DNA of 64,000 nt from Thermoplasmatota archaeon (GTDB lineage: Archaea; Thermoplasmatota; Thermoplasmata; UBA10834). The position numbers and the translations under genes were made by a program. Of this stretch, positions 1 to 1,436 are shown piece by piece. The DNA lies in contig JAHIRF010000005.1 of assembly GCA_018818785.1 (NCBI GenBank), positions 310,001 to 374,000 on the forward strand. The letters are read 5' to 3'. Under the pieces are notes generated by a model. It had not been told where the DNA came from. It searched no databases and was given only the letters and a program-made list of their open reading frames with translations. Position 1 is the stretch's first letter. Each line of letters opens with the position of its first letter.

Positions 1-48
1 ACACCAGGGACTGTATGGTGAAGCGGTAATAAGTCTTTCACGGAGACG

Positions 49-71
49 GTTCTGTCAATTTTCGGGTGGTG
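49..71 (+). repeat. Left terminal inverted repeat of the TnpB element
   Basis: This 23-bp sequence pairs with the reverse complement of 1398-1420 with two mismatches (positions 60 and 61). The flanking direct repeat CACGGAGAC is at 39-47. Confidence 0.7.
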
Positions 72-175
72 TTGTCGATGGTGCCTTTCTCGATGACATG
101 AATATCTCGTCGATTGCATGAGTAGCATGCATGTAACCAAGCGGTGAATATGCCCCTGGCCAGATACCGTATTCG

Positions 176-1393
176 ATGCTCCACAGAGCGGTAGTGTTCC
201 ACATTCATGGCGAGCTACCATTTGAGGCTACGATGCTCATGGAGGATTTCCGCCTGGCAGTCAACTCTGCGATCAGAGCGGGCCTAAATGCGAAGGTCAC
301 CTCCAGGAATGCCCTGGCGAAGCTTGCGTACAAGGACTTCAGGAAAGAGCATCCGAACATGTATGCCCAGCATCTGGTATCCTCGTTCGAGGTCGCGGGT
401 TCGGTGCTGAAGAACCTGCGAAGGCGTTGGGGGAAGGGCCCGACCCATCGCATTCCATATGTGCGTCGACTGATGATGAAGGCGGAGAACCAGGCATACA
501 AGCTCGATCGAGAGAATGGCGTGATCGACCTTCCTATACGGGCAGGATGTCATGTGAAGCTGAGGCTCGTCCTGAGCGATTACCATCGCATCTATCTGAA
601 CGACAGAACTCTCTCTCTTGGTTCACTGACCCTACTTCCAGACAGAGTCATAATAGCCTTCAGGAAGAGCCTGCCTGAATCATACATTCCAGAGACGGCC
701 CTGTCTCTGGATACCAATGAACGATCCTTGGACGGCGTGTTACTGAGCGAAGATGAGTGCCTGCCAGTCCAGGCCGCGTATCCCGATGTCCCGATAATCC
801 AGGCACGGCATCATGACCAGCGCAGGAGCCTCCAGAAGAAGAAGGCGCACGACCGGCGGACATCGAGGCGGTTGTGTCGCAGAGAGGGGAAGAGAGAGCG
901 TCATCGGATCGAGTATCGCATGCACCAGGTGGCCAATGCGGTCCTCGGCTTCGCGGAGGAGCATAAATCGACGATTGTGCTCGAGGATCTGAGTTGGATG
1001 ACAGCGCGTAAGCGCGGCAAATCGCTCAACAGGCGGTTGAACTCATGGCCTCGGAGGAAGCTTCACGACTTCATCGAGTACAAGGCAGCCTGGAAAGGCG
1101 TGCCAGTCATCAAGGTGGACCCATACAACAGCAGCAGGAGGTGCCCAATATGTAGGAGATTGAATCATTCCCGAATGGGCGCCGATTTCGAGTGTGAGTG
1201 CGGTTGGTGTGCCGACAGGCATGTCAACGCTGGCATAAACCTGCTGCAGACAGCCTTCCCAGAAGGGATGGCAGGGGGCTTACGGTTCAGCCCCGGCGCG
1301 TTCCAGCATGACGTGGTGATGACCCTCTACGACCCAGAGATGGGCGCACGGTTGGAGCCGAATGGGACGAGTCGATCGGTGGTTCAGTCATGA
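176..1393 (+). CDS. tnpB: RNA-guided endonuclease TnpB (OrfB family)
   Basis: At 405 aa this is a typical full-length TnpB/OrfB. An N-terminal helical half leads into a split RuvC nuclease with the expected acidic triad: D179 in SLDTNERS, E270 in IVLEDLS and D347 in CADRHVNAGINLL. A C-terminal zinc ribbon sits between the last two (CPIC at 323-326, then CECGWC at 340-345). The cysteine spacing of the second half is slightly unusual, CxCxxC instead of CxxC. TnpB proteins are RNA-guided DNA nucleases that keep their transposons in place by re-cutting donor sites; the guide RNA normally overlaps the 3' end of the gene. No TnpA Y1 transposase is present, though only 175 bp lie upstream. The reading frame is intact, so the nuclease could be active. 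Confidence 0.9.
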   Translation: MLHRAVVFHIHGELPFEATMLMEDFRLAVNSAIRAGLNAKVTSRNALAKLAYKDFRKEHPNMYAQHLVSSFEVAGSVLKNLRRRWGKGPTHRIPYVRRLMMKAENQAYKLDRENGVIDLPIRAGCHVKLRLVLSDYHRIYLNDRTLSLGSLTLLPDRVIIAFRKSLPESYIPETALSLDTNERSLDGVLLSEDECLPVQAAYPDVPIIQARHHDQRRSLQKKKAHDRRTSRRLCRREGKRERHRIEYRMHQVANAVLGFAEEHKSTIVLEDLSWMTARKRGKSLNRRLNSWPRRKLHDFIEYKAAWKGVPVIKVDPYNSSRRCPICRRLNHSRMGADFECECGWCADRHVNAGINLLQTAFPEGMAGGLRFSPGAFQHDVVMTLYDPEMGARLEPNGTSRSVVQS

Positions 1394-1397
1394 TGAC

Positions 1398-1420
1398 CAC
1401 CACCCGATTATTGACAGAAC
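1398..1420 (-). repeat. Right terminal inverted repeat of the TnpB element
   Basis: This is the inverted copy of 49-71 and begins five bases after the tnpB stop codon. The flanking direct repeat CACGGGGAC at 1422-1430 leads straight into a short perfect hairpin (GGGAC T GTCCC, 1426-1436). For a TnpB effector, the 3' end of the gene and the element's right end are where the omega RNA would be expected. Confidence 0.7.
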
Positions 1421-1425
1421 TCACG

Positions 1426-1436
1426 GGGACTGTCCC
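1426..1436. other. Short hairpin beside the TnpB element right end
   Basis: GGGAC and GTCCC form a perfect 5-bp stem with a one-base loop, six bases outside the right inverted repeat. It overlaps the flanking direct repeat and may be part of the omega RNA or a transcription terminator. The role is unknown. Confidence 0.35.

Follow-up and report, generated by a model that had tools for sequence, protein, structure and literature searches.

The window analyzed here is a stretch of 64,000 nucleotides (positions 310001 to 374000 of contig 12, C12) from a 1.97-Mb archaeal genome (labelled G000). Near its left end lies an element with imperfect terminal inverted repeats and flanking direct repeats, in which a tnpB gene is the sole long open reading frame (ORF) resembling a known protein. 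In prokaryotes, TnpB is associated with IS200/IS605 and IS607 elements, whose insertion does not duplicate the target, and its eukaryotic descendants occur in DDE-type transposons with terminal inverted repeats (TIRs). We conclude that positions 48 to 1421 probably form a non-autonomous transposon, in which the terminal repeats of an IS6-like insertion sequence (IS) enclose a tnpB gene with intact active site together with its guide RNA (omega-RNA). The features of the locus are as follows.

27-38, plus strand: insertion-site motif TAATAAGTCTTT, a TATA-like box and then CTTT beside the duplication; CTTT is the candidate transposon-adjacent motif (TAM).
39-47, no strand: left 9-bp target-site duplication CACGGAGAC, adjoining the element and matching the right copy at 8/9 positions.
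48-1421, plus strand: complete non-autonomous TIR element with tnpB and omega-RNA, delimited by edges common to independent copies and by empty sites in relatives.
48-71, plus strand: left terminal inverted repeat (LE) GGTTCTGTCAATTTTCGGGTGGTG, from arm pairing and copy alignments.
176-1393, plus strand: tnpB, 405 aa, with RuvC residues D179, E270 and D347 and zinc-finger cysteines 323, 326, 340 and 342, from profile matches, structure comparison and substitution ratios.
1252-1421, plus strand: omega-RNA scaffold region (model R1), from covariation; it overlaps the tnpB 3' end and extends to the final base of the element.
1372-1377, plus strand: 5' arm (TCGATC) of the 3'-terminal scaffold stem, pairing with 1409-1414 at 5/6 positions in the window copy.
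1398-1421, minus strand: right terminal inverted repeat (RE), from arm pairing, repeat search and copy alignments.
1409-1414, plus strand: 3' arm (TATTGA) of the same stem, within the right terminal inverted repeat.
1422-1430, no strand: right 9-bp target-site duplication CACGGGGAC, with which the guide is predicted to begin (9 nt), by analogy with known TnpB omega-RNAs.

An earlier note on this DNA had described a TnpB enclosed in a terminal-repeat element, and this observation is confirmed and well supported. The inverted arms that it had placed at 49-71 and 1398-1420 were found as stated (23 nt, inverted, 91% complementary); its edges needed correction, as the repeat is one base longer on each side, giving an imperfect 24-bp repeat (48-71 and 1398-1421) with an extra outer base that is G/T and not G/C; the direct repeats abut the element exactly. 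These imperfect 9-bp repeats are likewise real (39-47 and 1422-1430, 8/9 identical), and 9-bp duplications proved general across elements of the family. The stop codon of tnpB lies 4 nt ahead of the right terminal repeat, and by ORF reading no transposase ORF was detected within 48-1421.

Further copies of the element were found in the same genome. The 23-mer (allowing up to 3 mismatches) gave 13 matches compared to none for a reversed control. A second full copy (C12:378919-380294) and a third large copy, interrupted by a contig end, each have 85% DNA identity to the window element; in both, similarity stops exactly at GGTTCTGT on the left, and in the complete copy it also stops at the right edge. 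The starts of contigs C12 and C11 (C12:1 and C11:1) are the two sides of the third copy and have CGGCGATTC on both flanks (9/9), which indicates that these contigs are genomic neighbours; multiple contig ends of this genome are located inside element copies. The genome also holds six miniature copies, in which a left end of about 154 bp is fused to a right end of about 188 bp, with the same junction in most of them. A different internal deletion was observed at the end of contig C5 (L012), joining the left 144 bp to tnpB sequence that starts at element base 922.

A search with a covariance model built on the right end gave matches in 12 of the 21 genomes of the order, and the counts of duplications, target sites and orientation given below refer to 21 elements of 217-1506 bp among these matches. 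The 9-bp flanks were identical in 11 elements, matched at 8/9 in seven, at 7/9 in two and at 6/9 in one; when, as a control, the left flank of one element was paired with the right flank of another, 7/9 or better was reached in 1 of 420 cross-pairings. Full tnpB elements with 9/9 duplications were present in G015 (TTGGCCTTC) and G009 (GCCATTTCA). Empty sites were also detected: the gene pair of the window locus is contiguous without the element in at least eight relatives, and the pair that flanks a miniature element (L020) is contiguous in six. Relatives with the same ends are deposited as metagenome-assembled genomes of Thermoplasmatota/Thermoplasmata or Euryarchaeota. The end pattern also matched sequences of Nocardiopsis, Actinopolymorpha, Cyclobacteriaceae, Acidobacteriota and Micromonospora, but with neither a TnpB nor a second end nearby, and these matches were taken as chance.

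We next consider the source of the ends. Membership of the IS6 family is marked by an IS240/IS6-type DDE domain. In G003, a protein of this type was found whose C-terminus region ends in the repeat GGTTCTGTCTAGCCATCGGGTG, close to the left end of TnpB elements (e.g., GGTTCTGTATAGTTATCGGGTG in copy L010). Its DDE domain matched PF13610 at 61.7 bits (cut-off 27), and the protein, which is partial, scored 66.3 bits against the IS6 model, below the cut-off of 125. Relatives of this transposase are present in 54 of 400 genomes of the class. Among them are several complete ISs that combine GGTTCTGT- or GGTTCCGT-type ends with 9/9 duplications and encode transposases with N-terminal SWIM and zinc-ribbon segments, as read from translations. 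A decayed IS6-like relative, followed by GGTTCTGTCTAATTAACGGGTGGTT, occurs in G000. The complete ISs match 9/9 at a duplication length of 9, not at the 8 bp of IS6. Since IS6 proper makes 8-bp duplications (PMC7986276) and archaeal IS6 members are only distantly related to the bacterial ones (PMC6807381), the partner is termed IS6-like. The TnpB elements agree with these ISs in type of ends and in duplication length but have no transposase; they are probably non-autonomous derivatives of an IS6-like IS and are apparently mobilized in trans by its transposase. Other transposases were rejected as partners: ISL3 was found in 0/19 genomes of the family, and DDE_Tnp_1 in 3/19, none with a GGTTCTGT..CGGGT end nearby.

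Two further observations concern this IS group. In the decayed IS6-like IS of G000 (C12:174108-175344; L082, L197), a C-terminal transposase fragment is followed by about 800 bp of unrelated sequence, which includes a frame resembling an NYN/PIN-type protein, and then by the right terminal repeat. G003:C95 (L074) and G002:C67 (L083) have an apparently orthologous IS6-like insertion, located upstream of genes for a ribbon-helix-helix protein and an FtsZ-like protein, with a terminal-repeat remnant (L034) at the corresponding site of G000.

The earlier note had reasoned that TnpB was captured by, or stabilized in, a DDE-type non-autonomous unit, and had proposed to look for copies with and without tnpB, for empty sites and for a full-length element with the same ends and a DDE transposase. 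All were found: both kinds of copy have the same ends, relatives keep the window locus uninterrupted, and elements with the same type of ends and a DDE transposase occur in the class. Neither outcome that it had named as contrary, IS605-type edges or a terminal repeat in no other copy, was encountered. Its proposal is supported by the shared ends, the 9-bp duplications, the empty sites and the autonomous ISs of the class. It is refined in three respects: the apparent partner is an IS6-like transposase, the guide RNA uses the right terminal repeat within its scaffold, and the element has given rise to miniatures with the guide RNA alone.

To what extent the nuclease is maintained was judged from the protein. 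The tnpB product matched Pfam Cas12f1-like_TNB at 63.6 bits (cut-off 26.3) and NCBIfam guided_TnpB at 86.9 bits, slightly below the cut-off of 100. Residues D179, E270 and D347 and cysteines 323, 326, 340 and 342 were invariant across 10 sequences, down to 40% identity. By sequence and by an AlphaFold model of moderate confidence (mean predicted local distance difference test score of 71), the closest solved structures are those of Cas12f and TnpB (9nzs, 8iaz, 8exa), which resemble the window protein in fold and in the RuvC/zinc-finger end but, unlike it, come from CRISPR or IS605-type loci. The window protein thus has the RuvC D..E..D and zinc-finger cysteines of a TnpB and is predicted to cleave beside a TAM under RNA guidance. 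The ratio of nonsynonymous to synonymous substitution (dN/dS) among TnpB copies was 0.16-0.20, indicating purifying selection. Many genomes of the class encode TnpBs of this clade, and relatives at 40-56% TnpB identity, in at least four families, retain such ends: the terminal repeats at distant TnpBs matched at 22/22 bases in L250 (same order), 21/22 in L266, 18/22 in L263 (duplication 7/9) and 16/22 in L256. The association of TnpB with these repeats is old.

The guide-RNA scaffold was examined by covariation. The right 170 nt is conserved in copies both with and without tnpB, and across 18 sequences compensatory changes were found in 11 of 28 pairs, a level reached by none of 500 shuffles. 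The 14 miniature non-coding elements alone had compensatory changes in 13 of 34 pairs and revealed an extra 3' stem, in which the variable central part of the right terminal repeat pairs with a segment after the scaffold (97.6% paired; helix covariation 0.835 compared to 0.265 in shuffles). Thus, the right terminal repeat is both a transposase end and an RNA stem. The predicted transcript would overlap the 3' end of tnpB and reach the right end of the element, as expected of an omega-RNA; no Rfam family matched the scaffold. Non-coding derivatives of 217-550 bp retain it, and the smallest of these (L016, G000:C1:258852-259068; 217 bp), which has a near-absent left end, a full scaffold and an 8/9 duplication, comes close to a solo omega-RNA gene.

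Insertion sites were found to be alike. Directly left of the duplication, the 21 elements have the motif TATAA-N3-BTTN, with TATAA at -11 to -7 and T at -3 in 20/21 (95%) and at -2 in 21/21 (100%), for an expectation of TT of 0.11 per site; AA at the mirrored right-hand position was found in 1/21. On the opposite strand the motif corresponds to a TFIIB recognition element (BRE) and TATA box, in the window those of the left gene, and TAATAAG..TTT is kept in several empty-site relatives. The left neighbour gene mostly begins 25-76 nt past the duplication and reads away from the element, so that the elements insert just upstream of the core promoter of the neighbour; for the same reason, a TATA box reading into the element was rejected.

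Several observations weigh against the reading of these loci as IS6-derived elements that retain a working TnpB and guide RNA. Two copies (L010 and L155) have good ends but no matching duplications. The IS6-like copy of G003 is interrupted by a contig end, and G000 yielded no intact autonomous partner whose ends match; an intact 436-aa IS6-like ORF with a zinc ribbon (L073, G000:C12:178124-178552) was rejected as partner, being without recognisable matching ends. Two 351-bp miniatures of G008 (L190 and L191) carry only the last part of the scaffold and yet have the same orientation and site type. Autonomous ISs without TnpB use the same TATA..TTN site, and the TT motif is therefore not by itself proof of a TAM.

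By this last result the motif is a preference of the transposase, and this weakens our initial candidate explanation that TT beside the duplication is a signature left only by TnpB. Orientation relative to the motif is a separate matter. Among autonomous ISs scored by eye, the motif lay on the side of the transposase-gene start in five (L217, L218, L225, L234, L235) and on the other side in four (L198, L232, L236, L074), with L236 having a weaker motif on its other side too. Orientation is thus 21 to 0 in TnpB/omega-RNA elements compared to about 5 to 4 in autonomous ISs (Fisher p of about 0.005), and it is the only site feature specific to the TnpB/omega-RNA elements, with L190 and L191 as a small counter-example. 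Uniform orientation could instead of TAM-dependent retention reflect asymmetric ends as read by the transposase, or avoided transcription into the neighbour, and to this we give a substantial chance, somewhat short of even: the target motif is shared by ISs without TnpB and the orientation by L190 and L191 without the full scaffold, but autonomous ISs that share this type of ends insert both ways.

A reading of TnpB as inert cargo, carried along in a miniature transposon that the IS6-like transposase moves, with TnpB and omega-RNA now contributing nothing, is unlikely. Miniatures that lack tnpB have spread too, two of them (L190 and L191) without most of the scaffold; however, the low dN/dS, the active site conserved at 40% identity, the compensatory scaffold changes that extend to non-coding copies, and an association held in at least four families argue against it.

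An ordinary IS200/IS605-type element (IS1341-like, TnpB only) with coincidental terminal and flanking repeats is highly improbable. A TnpB with an overlapping 3' omega-RNA is a hallmark of such elements, but here terminal repeats lie at the edges of every copy, 9-bp duplications are general and the ends match those of IS6-like ISs; copy alignment and duplications rule out edges of the IS605 or IS607 type. IS200/IS605 elements have neither terminal inverted repeats nor target duplications (PMC3119063). They are recognized by a Y1 HUH transposase or its ends, whereas the window element has TIRs, duplications and no transposase ORF (Y1 transposases elsewhere in the genomes were not searched for); nor does it have the serine recombinase and the lack of TIR and duplication that mark IS607. 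Least probable of all is RNA-guided transposition, in which TnpB and omega-RNA would select the insertion site: TnpB is the only gene carried and a short motif is common to insertions, but each copy has its own flanks, the sequences that would serve as guides, so that a donor guide cannot specify the next site, and TnpB-less ISs use the same motif.

For the non-autonomous transposon with a functional TnpB, we propose the following life cycle. An IS6-like transposase (SWIM, zinc ribbon, DDE) acting in trans would insert the element beside the BRE/TATA promoter of a neighbour and generate the 9-bp duplication. The 3' end of the transcript would then fold into a scaffold of which the right terminal repeat forms a part, a fold shown by covariation, and the guide, as in known TnpBs, would start with the right duplication copy and continue into the right flank. 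The TnpB ribonucleoprotein would match the empty pre-insertion site, where TT(N)/BTTN of the target motif is in the position of a TAM; cutting of this site would favour repair from the element-bearing copy, as proposed for IS200/IS605, and we infer that RNA-guided cutting of empty sites serves retention of the element in this manner. Miniature derivatives would be mobile guide-RNA genes that use TnpB in trans. The cycle as a whole, in which the promoter-side transposase motif doubles as TAM, the duplication as the first 9 guide nucleotides and the TIR as transposase site and RNA stem, while a few TnpBs serve the miniatures in trans and defend every insertion, is put forward tentatively, at close to an even chance of being right.

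Prokaryotic TnpB has been described in IS200/IS605, IS607 and IS1341 contexts (e.g., PMC9956272). No precedent for a prokaryotic TnpB in a transposon with TIRs and 9-bp duplications was found in open-access papers, with subscription papers and most preprints outside this search, such that a prior report is possible; in the papers searched, the transposon type is thus unreported for prokaryotic TnpB and guide RNA. The window element resembles IS200/IS605 and IS1341-type TnpB elements in the omega-RNA that overlaps the tnpB 3' end and runs to the right end, in the left TAM-like motif and in the presence of miniatures (PATEs), and differs in its lack of an internal Y1 TnpA, its real TIRs, its 9-bp duplication and its double-strand, DDE-type insertion. 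With archaeal IS6 family ISs it shares the DDE_Tnp_IS240 domain of the partner, ends beginning GGTTCTGT and GG tips, but the duplication is 9 bp and not 8 bp, the partner has an N-terminal SWIM and zinc-ribbon extension, and the TnpB element is without transposase. The miniatures are like miniature inverted-repeat transposable elements of archaeal ISs in being short, non-coding and alike in ends and duplication length to an IS, but unlike these they conserve a structured guide-RNA scaffold.

The closest parallel is eukaryotic. Fanzor is found in eukaryotic TIR transposons, in which terminal repeat and duplication are predicted as scaffold (PMC10711439). Fanzor1 and Fanzor2* transposons are, like the window element, often non-autonomous cut-and-paste transposons with TIRs and target-site duplications that house a TnpB homologue, the terminal repeat being predicted to lie in the guide-RNA scaffold. 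Fanzors have a eukaryotic host and a relocated RuvC2 glutamate beside the zinc finger, whereas the window element is archaeal, has an IS6-like partner and encodes a canonical TnpB whose RuvC2 glutamate, E270, has its ordinary place and precedes the zinc finger by about 50 residues; as the sequence of the 9-bp duplication is variable, the duplication would belong to the guide and not to the scaffold. Elements of this type are likely a prokaryotic counterpart of Fanzor transposons. The stable residence of a prokaryotic TnpB within an element of DDE type shows that the transposase switch is not a eukaryotic invention. The family is also a natural system in which target duplication, guide boundary and TAM can be told apart; it provides many guide-RNA genes that are naturally dispersed and have no nuclease, together with an IS group whose insertions lie beside core promoters.

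At one locus of G009 (C218:548-571; L063/L051), a good terminal repeat has neither TnpB nor scaffold and lies, at the end of a contig, beside a zinc-ribbon frame of 105 aa, which may be a different cargo carried by the same IS group.
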